A stretch of 64,000 nt of DNA from Spirochaetales bacterium (GTDB lineage Bacteria > Spirochaetota > Spirochaetia > UBA9216): contig JAEKNX010000004.1 in NCBI GenBank assembly GCA_016839055.1, forward strand, positions 62,001 to 126,000, read 5' to 3'. The notes beneath the pieces were generated by a model, which saw only the letters and a list, made by a program, of their open reading frames with translations, had not been told where the DNA came from and ran no database searches. A program made the translations under genes and the position numbers. Positions 44,410 through 50,909 of the stretch are shown piece by piece (within the stretch, counting starts at the first letter, position 1; every line of letters begins with the position of its first letter).

Positions 44410-46899
44410 ATGAGATGTCATGATTTATTAAAATATAAAAACTCCCTTCTTGTTTTTATTATAATATTTTTTTTTAATATCGCAGTTTTTTCCGATCAAC
44501 AATCAACCGATTTTCTTCTCGAATCGGAGAGGACCTGGTTGTTGGATAATATTGATAATATTGAATTATGGTACAATCCTGAATTCCCTCCTCTTGAATA
44601 TGCAGATTCAGAAGGTAATTTTGTCGGCATGGGGGCTGATATCTTCGCACTTATTGAAGAAAGACTAGGGGTAACATTTAATAAAAGACTAAGCAATGAC
44701 TGGAATGAGCAATTATCATCCTTGCGCGACGGCACCAGTGCTATTGCCCCGACGATAGTTGAAAACTCGGTGAGGGAAGAATATCTTAATTTTACTACAC
44801 CTTATGCTGTCGTTGAAATTGTAATAATAACTGATAATGAAGAACGACGTCATCTTGGGTTATCAGATTTAAAGGATTACCGTGTAGCAGTTGTCTCCGG
44901 TTTCGCTACTGAAGATTATATATCAGACAACATGAAATTTTTTAATGAAATTATTACTGTAAAAAACAATGAGGAAGGGCTGAGGGCTGTTTCGTTCGGG
45001 CAGGTCGATGCATTTATCGGGAATATTGCAGTTGCATCATATCATATCAACAGATTAGGGATTACAAATCTGAAGGTCGCAGGAGAACTTGATTATAACT
45101 TCAGTTTCAGTATCGGCATCAGTAAGAAATATCCTGAACTCCATACGATTATTCAGAAAGCTCTCAGCGAGATCCGAGATGAGGAGATTGATGAAATAAA
45201 GAGCAGATATATAACGCTTACTGCTCACACAGGTCTTTCGCCTGAAAATAAAAGATGGTTTATCCTGGGTACTGCGGTTGTCGGGTTTATGCTTATCTCA
45301 ATTCTTTTAATTTCTTTGGGTTTGAAAAAGCGGCTTAATAAAAATATTCAGATCTTAAATGATGAACAGCTTAAAAGTCTGCAGAATGCGGAACGATACA
45401 GAGCTTTGTTTTTTAATGCGCCTATTGCACTGCTTGAAATGCAGAAAAACGGGGAAATTGTCCAGGTGAACAAAACCTTTACTGATAAATTCGGTTATAC
45501 AATTGAAGATCTACCGCATCTTGATAATTGGTGGGAGCTGGCATATGCAGATGAGCAGATCCGAAGGAACGAGAGGGAAGCTTGGGAGATTGCACAATCA
45601 GATGGCTATATGTTGGAGTCAGCTGTTGAGTACGGTTCCTTTGAACTCCGAGGTAAGGACGGAAGTAACCGGGTGTTTATAATCAGTATAAATATGGCTG
45701 CAGAAAATTATATTTTTTCATTTATGGATATAGATGAACAGCAGAAGATGGCAGCGGAATTGAAGAAAAGTCGTGATAATTTTTATACCCTTTTTGAACT
45801 CGCTCCCTTTACGTGTGTTGTAACTGATTTTAACGGGATTATTCTCGATACAAATCAGCATTTTTGCAGACAAAATGGTAAGACAAAGGATCGGATTGTC
45901 GGAAAGACAAATAAGGATCTGGGCAGACTGTTAAATCCTGAAATCAGTCAAAAAGTCGTTGAGGATTTGAAGATCAATGGTTTCAGCCCCTTAAAGGAAA
46001 TTTCTATAAAATTCGGTGCGAAGGAGATATGGGTTCTTTTTGCCAGTCAGGTGATTGACTGGTCTCAAGGTAAAGCTATTTTGAGCGTTACAATAGATAT
46101 AACAGATAAGAAGAGCGTTGAGTTGGAGCTTCAGGAAAATAGAAATAACCTTGAAAAGATAGTTTTTGATCGAACCAGAGAGCTTGAAGAGGCGATACAG
46201 GAGCGGAAAGAGAAGGAATCACAATTAATACAGGCAGAAAAAATGGCTTCTGTTGGACTTTTAACAGCAGGAATTTCTCATGAAATTAATAATCCCTTAA
46301 ACTATCTTATGGGAGCATATGTTAATCTTGCAGATTATTTTAAATCTTCCGGTAATCAGGAGGAAGCAATAGCCTTTCTTCTGGATGGAATGAAGGAAGG
46401 TATTGATAGAGCTGCAGCGATTGTGAAAGGGCTTAATCAGCTGAGCCGGGACAGTCGGGCATATGATGAAGACTGCAACATAAATGAAATAATAGACAAT
46501 TGTCTTCTGGTATTACAGAATAAATTGAAGGATAGAATCGTTATTATACAGGATTATCAGAATGGTTCAAATCATATAGAGGGTAACATCGGAAAGCTTC
46601 ATCAGGTCTTTTTGAATATTCTCAACAATGCATGCCAGGCGATTGAAAATGAAGGTAAAATTACTATAGTTGTCGGAAAATCTGAGGCTCAAACGGAGAT
46701 AACGATTGCTGATAACGGATGTGGTATAGCGCCCGAAGAGCTGTCAAAGATCGTTGAGCCGTTTTATACTACAAGGGCGCCCGGGGATGGAATTGGACTA
46801 GGGTTATCCATATGCTATAATATAATACAGGAACATAATGGTAGGCTTGAAATAGCTTCTGAGCCTGGTATGGGTACTACTGTAAGTATACATCTATAA
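44410..46899 (+). CDS. Sensor histidine kinase with periplasmic solute-binding domain and PAS domains
   Basis: This 829-aa membrane kinase has an N-terminal hydrophobic signal, an SBP_bac_3-type periplasmic amino-acid-binding domain (~35-265; LWYNPEFPPLEYAD, IEERLGVTF), TM (~287-306), and two PAS domains (~335-450 and ~470-575). HisKA follows (His624 in GISHEINNP), then HATPase (N-box and G-boxes around DNGCGIAPEE, GDGIGLGLSICYNI). It senses a small solute and phosphorylates a receiver, probably the stand-alone one encoded nine bases downstream. All kinase boxes are intact. It has its own promoter and leader hairpin. Confidence 0.9.
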   Translation: MRCHDLLKYKNSLLVFIIIFFFNIAVFSDQQSTDFLLESERTWLLDNIDNIELWYNPEFPPLEYADSEGNFVGMGADIFALIEERLGVTFNKRLSNDWNEQLSSLRDGTSAIAPTIVENSVREEYLNFTTPYAVVEIVIITDNEERRHLGLSDLKDYRVAVVSGFATEDYISDNMKFFNEIITVKNNEEGLRAVSFGQVDAFIGNIAVASYHINRLGITNLKVAGELDYNFSFSIGISKKYPELHTIIQKALSEIRDEEIDEIKSRYITLTAHTGLSPENKRWFILGTAVVGFMLISILLISLGLKKRLNKNIQILNDEQLKSLQNAERYRALFFNAPIALLEMQKNGEIVQVNKTFTDKFGYTIEDLPHLDNWWELAYADEQIRRNEREAWEIAQSDGYMLESAVEYGSFELRGKDGSNRVFIISINMAAENYIFSFMDIDEQQKMAAELKKSRDNFYTLFELAPFTCVVTDFNGIILDTNQHFCRQNGKTKDRIVGKTNKDLGRLLNPEISQKVVEDLKINGFSPLKEISIKFGAKEIWVLFASQVIDWSQGKAILSVTIDITDKKSVELELQENRNNLEKIVFDRTRELEEAIQERKEKESQLIQAEKMASVGLLTAGISHEINNPLNYLMGAYVNLADYFKSSGNQEEAIAFLLDGMKEGIDRAAAIVKGLNQLSRDSRAYDEDCNINEIIDNCLLVLQNKLKDRIVIIQDYQNGSNHIEGNIGKLHQVFLNILNNACQAIENEGKITIVVGKSEAQTEITIADNGCGIAPEELSKIVEPFYTTRAPGDGIGLGLSICYNIIQEHNGRLEIASEPGMGTTVSIHL

Positions 46900-46908
46900 T
46901 GGGGGAGT

Positions 46909-47277
46909 ATGAATAAGAATAGAAAAATTTTATATCTTGATGATGAATTTCTGAACCTCAGACTATTTGAAATGACTTTTTCTAAAAATCACACTGTTTT
47001 AACCGCTTCAGACGGTATTGAGGGGCTCGAGGTATTGGCCGTTAATCCGGAGATAGCGATTGTCATCAGTGATATGAAGATGCCGAATATGAATGGTTAC
47101 GAATTTGTTACCCGGGCAAAAGAAAAGTATCCGAATATAATGTTTGCGATATTATCCGGCTATGAGATTACAGAAGAGCTTAGTGTCGCCATGAAGAAAG
47201 GCGTAATTTCAAAGTATTTTAATAAGCCTTTCAATGTCCGCGAAATTGAGGCATTTCTTGCAAATTCGGGTGAATGA
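46909..47277 (+). CDS. Stand-alone response regulator receiver
   Basis: This 122-aa CheY-like receiver has the acidic pair LDDE (~14-17), the phospho-acceptor Asp in VISDMKMPNMNG, Ser in ILSGYE, and the conserved Lys in YFNKPF. It has no output domain, so it works by protein contact or as a phosphorelay/phosphate-sink intermediate. It is encoded nine bases after the sensor kinase stop with GGGGGAG before the ATG, so it is co-transcribed with it. The target is unknown. Confidence 0.9.
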   Translation: MNKNRKILYLDDEFLNLRLFEMTFSKNHTVLTASDGIEGLEVLAVNPEIAIVISDMKMPNMNGYEFVTRAKEKYPNIMFAILSGYEITEELSVAMKKGVISKYFNKPFNVREIEAFLANSGE

Positions 47278-47469
47278 TTTTCTTTTTGTCCATAATATGA
47301 AGACCCCCCATTAATTAGTAGTATTTTAATTCTGATCATGCGTTTTCTAATAAGATAAATGTTTTCTTTGTTAAAACGGTCATAAACTATCATTAAACGT
47401 TCAATATGTCATCAGATGAGCTTTACATACAATCAAACCTTTGTTATTATCCCTTTAAAGGGAGAAAAG

Positions 47470-48255
47470 ATGCCTGCTAATTTGATACCTGCCGGAAGAA
47501 GATCCGGCATACTTGCGGAAATTAAGGAACGAGGTTTTGCGAGTGTTGATGAGTTATCGTCGAAATTTGAGGTTTCTGTAATAACAATTCGTCGTGATCT
47601 GGATCAGCTCGAATCTGATGGGCTAATTGAGCGCACCCACGGCGGTGCAATCTATACTCGTCATATTGCAGCTGAATCACCCTATATGGAAAAAAATCAA
47701 CAGAACAGAGAAATGAAATCTGCAATAGGAATGAGGGCCGCGAAACTGGCCGAGCAGGGAGACACTGTATTCGTTAACAGCGGTTCAACCACCTTTCAGA
47801 TAATCCGATCCCTGCTGAATATTCCTCATATCCGAATAGTAACCAATAATATAGCCGCCGTACTTGAGTCTGAACCGGGGCCGGATACTGAACTCATTCT
47901 TATAGGCGGGCGATACCGGTTTAATTCAGGCTGTACAATAGGAAATTTTGCAGAAGAGCTTATCGGACAGTTGAATGTTTCTAAAACCTTCATAGGTGCC
48001 GACGGAATAAGCCTGAAAAGCGGAATCACCTCACCCATAGCTGAGGAGGCTGCTGTTACCCGTATGATGATTGAGCGTACATCAGGGCCGGTAATCCTTG
48101 CAGCAGATAGTTCTAAGGTTGGAAGTATGTCCACCTTCTTTACAGCGGCGTTGGAACGGATAGATTATCTTGTAACCGATGATAATTTTGATGAAACCTA
48201 TAGACCTGACTTCGAAGAAGTAGGAATTACAATAATAAAAACAGGAGGGATGTAA
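47470..48255 (+). CDS. DeoR-family transcriptional regulator
   Basis: This 261-aa regulator has an N-terminal HTH (RSGILAEIKERGFASVDELSSKFEVSVITIRRDLDQLESDGLIERTHGG) and a DeoR C-terminal sugar-phosphate-sensing domain (GDTVFVNSGSTTFQI ... FIGADGIS ... VILAADSSK). ATG 47470 follows AAAGGGAGAAAAG. The gene precedes the Ldh and malic-enzyme genes on the same strand and probably regulates them or a linked sugar acid pathway. Between its stop and the Ldh start lie three hairpins and a T-run, so co-transcription is likely attenuated. Confidence 0.88.
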   Translation: MPANLIPAGRRSGILAEIKERGFASVDELSSKFEVSVITIRRDLDQLESDGLIERTHGGAIYTRHIAAESPYMEKNQQNREMKSAIGMRAAKLAEQGDTVFVNSGSTTFQIIRSLLNIPHIRIVTNNIAAVLESEPGPDTELILIGGRYRFNSGCTIGNFAEELIGQLNVSKTFIGADGISLKSGITSPIAEEAAVTRMMIERTSGPVILAADSSKVGSMSTFFTAALERIDYLVTDDNFDETYRPDFEEVGITIIKTGGM

Positions 48256-48315
48256 AAATTACGTCCGTGTAATTTTTACATTTTGAAGTTTGAAAGCGTT
48301 GCTTGTCAAACTTCA
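48253..48315 (+). ncRNA. Two-hairpin element, copy A (before Ldh gene)
   Basis: The DeoR stop codon begins the element. Hairpin 1 is AAAAATTAC / GTAATTTTT (48254-48262 with 48269-48277). Hairpin 2 is TGAAGTTTG / CAAACTTCA (48284-48292 with 48307-48315, 14-nt loop). A homologous element with different first-stem bases follows the Ldh gene (49490-49554), and stem pairing is preserved there. The function is unknown; a regulatory RNA or 3'-end element is possible. Confidence 0.6.
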
Positions 48316-48324
48316 TCACCGAAA

Positions 48325-48349
48325 CCTGCATCCTTGCAGGAATTTTTTT
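48325..48349 (+). terminator. Terminator/attenuator just before Ldh gene
   Basis: CCTGCA / TGCAGG (48325-48330 with 48335-48340) around TCCT is followed by AA and seven T (48343-48349), ending 15 nt before the Ldh start codon. It could end DeoR transcripts or act as an attenuator for the Ldh gene. Confidence 0.65.
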
Positions 48350-48364
48350 CAGAGGAGAGAAAAT

Positions 48365-49492
48365 ATGGCGTATCAGGATCAGTATAAAGAGTGTGAATGG
48401 CTGGAGTTCGAGGTTCTTGAGAATTTCATGAAGGACTGTCTTGTGAAATGCGGAGTCCCCGCAACGGACGCAAAGACTGTATCAGATGTTCTTATCGAAT
48501 CAGATAAGAGAGGTATTGACTCGCACGGAATCGGAAGACTCAAACCAATTTATATCGACCGGATGGATGCAGGAATTCTCAATCCCGAAACAAAGATCGA
48601 CCTTATAAAAGAAACAGCTACGACTGCCGTCCTCGATGGAAATAACGGAATGGGTCATGTTGTTTCAACGAAAGCCATGCAGATGGCCATTGATAAGGCA
48701 AAAGAAAACGGAATGGGTATGGTTGCCGTTAGAAACTCAACTCATTATGGTATTGCCGGTTACTATCCTCTAATGGCTATTGATGCGGGAATGATCGGTA
48801 TAACCGGAACAAACGCAAGACCTTCTATCGCGCCTACCTTTGGTGTTGAAAATATGCTCGGAACAAACCCTCTTACAATAGGTTTTCCGACTGATGAGGA
48901 ATTTCCCTTTGTTCTTGATTGTGCAACCTCTGTTTCCCAGCGAGGAAAAATTGAGATGTACAGCCGTGCAGGTAAGGAACTTCCTGAGGGCTGGGTCATC
49001 GGACGTGACGGAAAAACCCGAACTGACACCGATCAGATTCTCGTAGACCTGACTAAGGGTAAGGCTGCACTCGCACCTGTCGGCGGACTCGGAGAGACTA
49101 CCGGCGGTTATAAGGGCTTCGGTTACGCTACCGTAGTTGAGGTTCTCTCGGCAGCCCTTCAGGGTGGTTCTTTTTTGAAAGACCTGAACGGATTTGATGA
49201 AGATGGAAACAAGATTCCCTATCCACTCGGACATTTTTTCATAGCAATAAACCTCGAGGCCTTCCTCGGCGTGGATCTTTTCAAGAAGATTGCAGGTTCT
49301 ATAATGAGAGATCTCAGGGCTTCTGAGGTAGCACCGGGTGAAGAGAGAATCTACACAGCCGGAGAGAAAGAGTACCTTGCATGGACCTACCGTAAAGAGC
49401 ACGGATGTCCGGTTCCTGCGGTTCTTCAGAAGCAGATGGTAGAGCTCCGAGACAGATGGAAGCTTGACTACAGTTTCACTTGGGAGAATTAA
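48365..49492 (+). CDS. Ldh-family malate/(S)-lactate-type dehydrogenase
   Basis: This 375-aa NAD(P)-dependent oxidoreductase of the MDH2/YlbC-type family (not the classic Rossmann LDH) oxidises malate, ureidoglycolate or sulfolactate-like 2-hydroxyacids. It shows DSHGIGRL, NNGMGHVVS, VRNSTHYGIAGYY and DCATSVSQRGKIE, the usual family landmarks. ATG 48365 has GAGGAGAG 7 nt upstream. The next gene on the strand is malic enzyme, so a malate-to-pyruvate scheme is plausible. Substrate specificity cannot be assigned. The stop codon overlaps the second copy of the two-hairpin element. Confidence 0.88.
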   Translation: MAYQDQYKECEWLEFEVLENFMKDCLVKCGVPATDAKTVSDVLIESDKRGIDSHGIGRLKPIYIDRMDAGILNPETKIDLIKETATTAVLDGNNGMGHVVSTKAMQMAIDKAKENGMGMVAVRNSTHYGIAGYYPLMAIDAGMIGITGTNARPSIAPTFGVENMLGTNPLTIGFPTDEEFPFVLDCATSVSQRGKIEMYSRAGKELPEGWVIGRDGKTRTDTDQILVDLTKGKAALAPVGGLGETTGGYKGFGYATVVEVLSAALQGGSFLKDLNGFDEDGNKIPYPLGHFFIAINLEAFLGVDLFKKIAGSIMRDLRASEVAPGEERIYTAGEKEYLAWTYRKEHGCPVPAVLQKQMVELRDRWKLDYSFTWEN

Positions 49493-49554
49493 AAAAGTCC
49501 ATCCGTGTACTTTTTTAATTTTGAAGTTTGAAAAGCTATGCTTTACAAACTTCA
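49490..49554 (+). ncRNA. Two-hairpin element, copy B (before malic enzyme gene)
   Basis: The Ldh stop codon begins the element. Hairpin 1 is AAAAAAGT / ACTTTTTT (49491-49498 with 49509-49516). Hairpin 2 is TGAAGTTTG / CAAACTTCA (49522-49530 with 49546-49554). The sequence is similar to copy A, and the second stems are identical. The first-stem bases differ but remain paired, which is covariation and supports RNA function. Confidence 0.6.
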
Positions 49555-49564
49555 TTTACAATAT

Positions 49565-49602
49565 CTGCCATACCTAGGGTGCTGCTTCGCAGTCCATGGC
49601 AG
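49565..49602 (+). promoter_or_regulatory. Third hairpin before malic enzyme
   Basis: CTGCCAT (49565-49571) pairs with ATGGCAG (49596-49602). Inside lies a CTGC / GCAG mini-stem. It is followed by AATTTATAT and ends 24 nt before the ATG. It occupies the same place as the terminator-like hairpin upstream of the Ldh gene. Confidence 0.5.
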
Positions 49603-49625
49603 AATTTATATAAGGATTACTATAA

Positions 49626-50909
49626 ATGGATGAACTTAAAGAAAAAGCACTTAAATATCATTGCATGGGCGGTAAACCCGGCAAGATTGAGGTTGTGGCA
49701 ACCAAGCCCTGCGTTACGGCAGAAGATCTCTCGCTGGCGTACACCCCGGGGGTGGCAAAGCCTGTTCTCGAGATAGCCGAGAATCCGGATGATGCCTATA
49801 AATATACAAGCAAGGGTAACCTTGTAGCCGTTGTCTCGAATGGTACAGCGATCCTCGGTCTTGGCAACAGGGGAGCCCTGGCTTCCAAGCCTGTTATGGA
49901 AGGCAAGGGAGTTCTGTTTAAGAGATTTGCCGATATAGATGTCTTTGATATCGAACTCGATACCGAGGATCCGGCAAAGATAATTGATATTGTCAAAACT
50001 ATGGAGCCTACCTTCGGCGGGATAAATCTGGAAGATATAAAGGCCCCTGAATGTTTTGAGATCGAACAGAAGCTGATTGAGCTCTGTAATATTCCGGTTT
50101 TTCATGATGATCAGCATGGTACGGCAATTATCTGTACCGCAGGCCTTATCAACGCCTGTGAGGTAACGGGGAAGAAGCTCGGGGATATCAAGGTTGTTAT
50201 CAACGGAGCAGGCGCCGCCGGAATAAGCTGCGCGAGAATGTTTATTACAGCAGGCGTTAAGAAAGAGAATCTTCTGATGTGTGACAGCAGGGGCGTTATC
50301 TATACTGGCCGGGATGCGAAGATGAATGCTCAGAAGGCCGAGTTTGCCAGAGACACTGATATGCGGACCCTCGCTGATGCCATGAAGGGCTCGGATGTTT
50401 TTGCGGGTCTGTCGGTTGCCGACTGCGTGAGCCCTGAGATGCTTCTTTCCATGGCCTCTGATCCGGTTGTTTTCGCTATGGCAAATCCCAATTCCGAGAT
50501 TGAGTATGGGCTGGCAGTTTCAACCCGCTCGGACCTGATAATGGCTACAGGGCGATCAGACTTTCCTAATCAGATAAACAATGTCCTGGGGTTTCCTTTT
50601 ATCTTCAGAGGCGCGCTGGATGTTAAATCCAGGAAGATTTCCGAGGGAATGAAGATGGCTGCAGCAAAAGCACTGTCCGCTCTGGCCAAGGAGCCGGTAC
50701 CTGATGAGGTCCGAAAGGCTTACGGACGTGATTTCACCTTCGGCAGGGAGTATATCGTTCCCAAACCCTTTGACCCGAGGGTGATTGAATGGGAAGCCAT
50801 GGCTGTTGCAAAGGCAGCCTGTGATGAAGGGCTTGCCGCCTCGCCTATTACCGATTGGGATGCGTACCGGGAGCAGCTCCGGAGCCGAATGGCAAAATAC
50901 TGGAAGTAG
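49626..50909 (+). CDS. NAD(P)-dependent malic enzyme
   Basis: This 427-aa oxidoreductase decarboxylates malate to pyruvate. It contains [14 protein letters not shown] (malate site), [27 protein letters not shown], the metal/acid motif [17 protein letters not shown], and the nucleotide fold [16 protein letters not shown]. The catalytic Tyr and Lys are in these blocks and appear intact. The compact ~430-aa length matches the bacterial short form without a phosphotransacetylase domain. It is separated from the Ldh gene by a three-hairpin leader, so it may be separately controlled. Confidence 0.93.

Follow-up and report, generated by a model that had tools for sequence, protein, structure and literature searches.

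Paired hairpin elements in a spirochaete malate-metabolism cluster are probably copies of a dispersed TD-2-group repeat at operon junctions

The 64,000-nt stretch of spirochaete DNA analysed here (the window) carries two similar hairpin elements before the genes for a malate/L-lactate dehydrogenase and a malic enzyme, and the question they raise is whether a common regulatory RNA serves both genes. The same three-hairpin element of about 100 nt fills both gaps of the DeoR-Ldh_2-malic enzyme cluster, at 48250-48364 (E1) and 49487-49625 (E2), and among the copies of this genome only these two fall inside the window. Their parts, with the Shine-Dalgarno (SD)-like sequences and the flanking genes, are the following.

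47416-48255, forward strand: gene for a DeoR-family regulator (Pfam)
48250-48281, forward strand: hairpin 1 (HP1) of E1, a 13-bp A+T-rich stem with loop GTCCGT, containing the TAA stop of the DeoR-type gene
48284-48315, forward strand: hairpin 2 (HP2) of E1, stem TGAAGTTTG/CAAACTTCA
48325-48340, forward strand: hairpin 3 (HP3) of E1, CCTGCATCCTTGCAGG and then a T run, terminator-like at E1 only
48351-48359, forward strand: SD-like AGAGGAGAG between E1 and the Ldh start codon, read from the sequence
48365-49492, forward strand: gene for malate/L-lactate dehydrogenase (Ldh_2, Pfam)
49487-49520, forward strand: HP1 of E2, loop region CATCCGTG, containing the TAA stop of the Ldh gene
49522-49554, forward strand: HP2 of E2, stem TGAAGTTTG/CAAACTTCA
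49565-49602, forward strand: HP3 of E2, of the extended-loop subtype, CTGCCAT...ATGGCAG with an inner GCTGCTTCGCAG hairpin
49612-49616, forward strand: SD-like AAGGA of the malic enzyme gene; an identical AAGGA stands at the empty junctions of relatives
49626-50909, forward strand: gene for malic enzyme (Pfam)

Read in the sense of the genes, the element opens with the A+T-rich HP1 (12-13 bp), continues with HP2 (GAAGTTTG.../...CAAACTTC) and closes with the more G+C-rich HP3, 3' of which follow the SD sequence and the ATG of the next gene. Both TAA stops (48253-48255 and 49490-49492) lie within the 5' arm of HP1, and pairing begins 3 nt before each of them. Folding of HP1 and HP2 against dinucleotide shuffles gave z = -7.7 and -7.6, with 0 of 200 shuffles as good, which bears out the hairpins placed here by the initial annotation. 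Its comparison of the two copies also holds: the second stem, GAAGTTTG/CAAACTTC, is common to E1 and E2, while the bases of HP1 differ and the pairing is retained, so that the covariation is real and the copies are homologous. A third hairpin does follow each, as had been described, but it is terminator-like at E1 only (CCTGCATCCTTGCAGG + AATTTTTTT); HP3 of E2 has a longer stem and an inner hairpin without a T run, and a shared attenuation signal at HP3 is thus not general. The HP3 subtype with the extra inner hairpin (GGTGCTGCTTCGCAG-like), seen in the window at 49565-49602, recurs at loci L019, L021, L030, L128 and L036, which indicates that the repeat family has sub-lineages.

The pattern GAAGTTTG-N5-30-CAAACTTC has 15 matches in the genome against 0 for a reversed control pattern, and the likeness of E1 to E2 is therefore far above chance. 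The element layout is common to 14 of these matches; the fifteenth (L001) does not share it and was rejected as an element. A covariance model (R1) built from seven copies detected, at E <= 3.1e-5, 50 places in this genome of 5.0 Mb, and 19, 30, 23 and 74 matches in the genomes of four other species in its genus (Ca. Thalassospirochaeta group, Spirochaetota). Further out it gave a single match in one genome of the same family and seven in the class relative G029, and none in the other 24 relatives searched. In a scan of named genomes, the pattern matched in Spirochaeta sp. UBA9216, Spirochaetales SZUA-414 and Ca. Thalassospirochaeta sargassi JB008. The R1 scores obtained in these three are identical to scores in G004, G001 and G003; they are therefore probably the same genomes, which would put the host in the Ca. 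Thalassospirochaeta group. Copies cluster locally: 7 neighbour pairs are no more than 2.5 kb apart, where 1.07 would be expected. They also form tandem arrays that repeat about every 100 nt and have one SD-like sequence per unit. At L131 2056-2370 (G000:C3:120055-120369) three near-identical head-to-tail units of about 100 nt, each starting CAGGAGAATTA, precede a dehydrogenase-complex-type gene.

The genes 3' of the copies, named by eye from the sequence, include rpoC, ybaB, flgG and argG, those for a sucA-like dehydrogenase, an ACT-domain protein and a 3-hydroxyacyl-CoA dehydrogenase (HADH), and exbB-like, dhaK-like and CooC-like genes. Because they are unrelated, nothing in the repeat family is malate-specific, and because one copy sits between rpoB and rpoC, strong termination is implausible. 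The initial annotation had proposed a covariance search and had allowed that the copies might be a mobile repeat unrelated to these genes, which is largely what the 50 copies genome-wide, before unrelated genes, turned out to be.

The repeat has a relative in Rfam. A gathering-level Rfam scan of the window gave no match; with an E-value threshold the TD-2 model (RF03162, clan CL00124) surfaced on the opposite strand, at 44.0 bits for E1 and 47.1 bits for E2 (gathering cut-off 48.7), spanning model positions 1-98 of 98 in both, with the three hairpins in TD-2 order. Six other copies of this genome score above the gathering cut-off, so that the TD-2 family is present in the genome and E1 and E2, just below the cut-off, are close relatives of it. 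Across a sample of the phylum, TD-2 matches occur in 30 of 296 genomes, mostly of one family (f24), which we take to be Treponemataceae.

The position of the copies is strict. In the genome studied, 41 of the 45 copies or arrays lie between two co-directional genes, all in one orientation, mostly with the upstream stop at one edge of the element and the downstream start at the other. Matches to the TD-2 model that are absent from the R1 list have the same sense as the R1 copies, and as these independent matches agree, the orientation bias is not an artefact of the SD-like flanks in R1. The copies of the Treponema family show no preferred orientation relative to the flanking genes (++16, --11, +-8, -+8), and among the 13 TD-2 matches of G190 (2,843,201 bp) no replication-strand bias was obvious by eye, assuming dnaA at position 1. 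At L124 1501-1540 and L039 1501-1540 the 5' arm of HP1, which includes the stop, is at the same time the last part of the upstream gene, and where relatives lack the element at these junctions their C-terminal codons are different; the element thus rewrites protein ends.

The corresponding junctions of relatives were retrieved with two chimeric protein queries, and all 12 of the 12 junctions with a usable comparison are empty in at least one relative. The malic enzyme junction is occupied in our genome, in G004 and, decayed, in G002, and empty in G003 and G006, where the stop is followed by AAGGA; the Ldh junction is occupied in our genome and G004 and empty in G003; and the rpoC junction is occupied in our genome and G001 and empty in G003 and G006. 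The flgG, ybaB, argG, amidohydrolase, sucA-like, CooC-like, ACT, exbB-like and dhaK-like junctions are at least partly occupied in our genome and each empty in at least one relative. At a thirteenth junction (GFO) no cleanly empty relative was found, and no relative comparable at the HADH junction was retrieved. Modules can be lost: our flgG copy is without HP2, our argG copy without HP1, and the dhaK-like copy of G004 consists of HP3 only. As a separate observation, the element at the rpoB-rpoC junction (L023, L048) occurs in two species with stems that have diverged and still pair, and a third species has a tight TTCTAAGGAG junction.

Gain at pre-existing tight stop/SD junctions would be the simplest reading of these comparisons, although loss may account for some junctions. 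At flgG of G004 the motif TATAGGGG stands on both sides of the element, which suggests a target duplication; across the copies, flank similarity exceeds permutation only weakly (72 of 5000). In the Treponema-family genome G304, a TD-2 copy in a ++ setting (L102, about 1480-1650) lies between near-identical flanks of about 20 nt (CTAACGCGGGGTTTTAGGAGG, SD included), which look like a target duplication or a tandem unit.

The stems bear on the kind of molecule that the pairing serves. Among 62 distinct copies, in an alignment fitted to the model, 95.6% of the cells pair, 25 of the 27 pairs have changed on both sides, and covariation scores 0.550, compared with 0.147 after shuffling and at most 0.087 after sliding. 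Between orthologous copies, 58 pairs of HP1 are unchanged, 21 are changed on both sides, one is changed on one side and three are broken (some HP2 and HP3 stems are poorly aligned in this comparison); the two-sided changes imply that pairing was maintained after insertion, or that copies were replaced by others. RNA helices tolerate G-U far better than A-C. An alignment-free count, made with a stem finder that scores Watson-Crick pairs only, put GU:AC at 16:23 for the genus and at 16:21 for Treponema. The corresponding figure for 35 tRNAs encoded in the genome studied is 55:3 (Fisher's test, p about 4e-9 for the genus and 2e-8 for Treponema), so that in this count the preference required of RNA helices is not seen in the element. 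A mild G-U excess (42:22) appears in the model-fitted alignment, which is biased towards G-U. Because A-C is as frequent as G-U, unlike in tRNA, complementarity is probably kept equally on both strands, and the stems would accordingly seem to be no ordinary RNA helix but a palindrome that is maintained at the DNA level or in which one arm corrects the other. Strong covariation alone can mislead, and the misreading of repeats as regulatory RNAs is a known pitfall; counting G-U against A-C, with tRNAs of the same genome for comparison, tells an RNA helix and a strand-symmetric palindrome apart.

We conclude that E1 and E2 are likely copies of a dispersed, non-coding repeat of about 100 nt and three palindromes, belonging to the TD-2 group, probably mobile DNA at operon junctions and not malate-specific. 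Copy number, position, orientation, presence or absence at orthologous junctions and strict complementarity of the stems are matters of observation. In this genus the repeat occupies the short gap from a stop codon to the SD sequence of the next gene, with a single orientation. It probably spreads as DNA, whether in the manner of a miniature mobile element or through template switching at SD-like repeats, and its palindromes are probably kept as DNA, either because they are needed for the spread or because one arm templates the other. Once in an operon mRNA, the hairpins may incidentally affect how the flanking genes are processed, how stable their mRNA is or how their translation is coupled; a mild local effect of E1 and E2 on mRNA processing or stability is possible, and if Ldh or malic enzyme were affected, this would be incidental. 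Several points count against a mobile repeat: a search for a mobilising enzyme of the Y1/RAYT type found none in our genome or in most carriers, the flanks support a target duplication weakly, the model-fitted alignment has its mild G-U excess, and loss may account for some junctions. The fixed orientation in the genus and the long retention of some copies, E1 and E2 both persisting in G004, would also fit a function at the mRNA level.

Such a function would make the repeat an intercistronic mRNA element of this genus, kept by selection as a barrier in processing or stability or as a means of decoupling translation. The single fixed orientation at operon junctions, with the stop codon in HP1 and the SD just 3' of HP3, is what one would expect of it, yet the orientation is mixed in Treponema and the orthologous junctions work without the element. 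Likewise, pairing is preserved between orthologues and the model-fitted alignment has its mild excess of G-U, but in the alignment-free count the stems reject G-U as much as A-C, unlike tRNA, and whole modules are freely lost, as in the flgG, argG and G004 dhaK-like copies. On balance we regard selection for an mRNA element as unlikely.

Still less probable is a role for the other strand, although the resemblance that prompts it is striking. In the sense of the genes the loops of HP1 and HP3 read CNTCCNTG, which is CANGGANG when read along the TD-2 strand; in both lineages the two N positions are free. CANGGANG is the hexaloop of CsrA/RsmE (PMC4894983), the TwoAYGGAY motif has been named in this context (PMC2864571), and GTACAAGGATGTAC, which many Treponema copies contain on the TD-2 strand, fits the CsrA consensus RUACARGGAUGU (PMC8668096). 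The genome itself encodes CsrA, and Rfam models the TD-2 strand as a small RNA (sRNA); if the antisense strand were transcribed, it might titrate CsrA through the loops of HP1 and HP3. In this genus, though, the TD-2 strand is antisense to nearly all of the flanking operons, and the strand-symmetric wobble favours an RNA on neither strand, so that we treat the hexaloop as a lead and the titration of CsrA as very improbable.

The malate-specific regulatory RNA of the initial annotation, a malate, pyruvate or lactate riboswitch or attenuator common to both genes, is scarcely credible, since the presence of two copies in a single DeoR-Ldh-malic cluster, retained together in G004, and the terminator-like HP3 of E1 have to be set against about 50 copies before unrelated genes (rpoB-rpoC included), sister species in which the same junctions are empty (both genes in G003, the malic enzyme gene in G006), the lack of a terminator at E2 and the absence of a conserved unpaired core of the aptamer kind, conservation outside the stems being confined to short hairpin loops. 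General rho-independent attenuation was rejected as well, the G+C-rich hairpin with a T run being present at E1 and not at E2 and one copy lying between rpoB and rpoC. So were a leader peptide from AGGAGGAATG before HP1, whose frames, by eye, vary in length and sequence between copies and are missing from several, and an origin of the HP1 arm by copying from the beginning of the gene that follows, for which no match was seen by eye. Directly upstream of the cluster, at 44410-47277 of the window, Pfam identifies a sensor kinase, whose sensing domain is SBP_bac_3 and which also has PAS domains, and then a single-domain response regulator, and this pair is a more conventional candidate regulator of the cluster.

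Among known families, TD-2 matches the dispersed repeat in hairpin order, in spacing (on opposite-strand reading) and in loop motif. It is entered in Rfam as an sRNA gene, whereas the element described here is antisense to the TD-2 model relative to the genes, has SD-like sequences on its flanks and keeps to one orientation. The range of TD-2 is hereby widened to a second group of spirochaetes, orientation-locked there at operon junctions, and a family catalogued as sRNA shifts towards a reading as mobile DNA. We would tentatively extend that reading, as a possibility, to all TD-2-type 'RNAs': they may be trios of DNA palindromes that target the SD between operon genes without a Y1 transposase, through template switching or a hypothetical hairpin-recognising enzyme, with arms matched as DNA and CsrA hexaloops on the other strand. 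The hairpins bound by CsrA/RsmE are alike in that the antisense loops of HP1 and HP3 fit their consensus at all fixed positions, and unlike in that, within this genus, GGA stands on the strand antisense to the genes.

REP and REPIN sequences, which occur with RAYT (Y1) transposases, are likewise dispersed DNA palindromes outside genes (PMC3116915, PMC3733652), but our element has three different palindromes per unit and most of its carriers have no Y1 transposase. A search for Y1_Tnp found no gene in our genome, in G001, G002 and G004 or in the five f24 genomes tested, and one containing stops in G003; identity with REP/RAYT was rejected because the transposase is missing from our genome. Closer at hand are the small interspersed repeats and MITEs, such as BOX, RUP and SPRITE of pneumococcus, ERIC and the Correia elements, of which BOX, RUP, ERIC and Correia are co-transcribed with operons and can influence expression (PMC3049150). 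The TD-2-group repeat differs from them in its strict position between stop codon and SD, in its single orientation and in having apparently no terminal inverted repeats around the whole unit and no parent IS or, in the search for Y1_Tnp, transposase. It shares with them a short, dispersed, strongly base-paired and modular make-up, an intergenic position, co-transcription with operons and variable presence, and the dispersed copies with presence or absence at orthologous sites expected of a MITE were found here (50 copies, 12 junctions). Small interspersed repeats such as BOX, RUP, ERIC and the Correia elements are its closest functional analogues.
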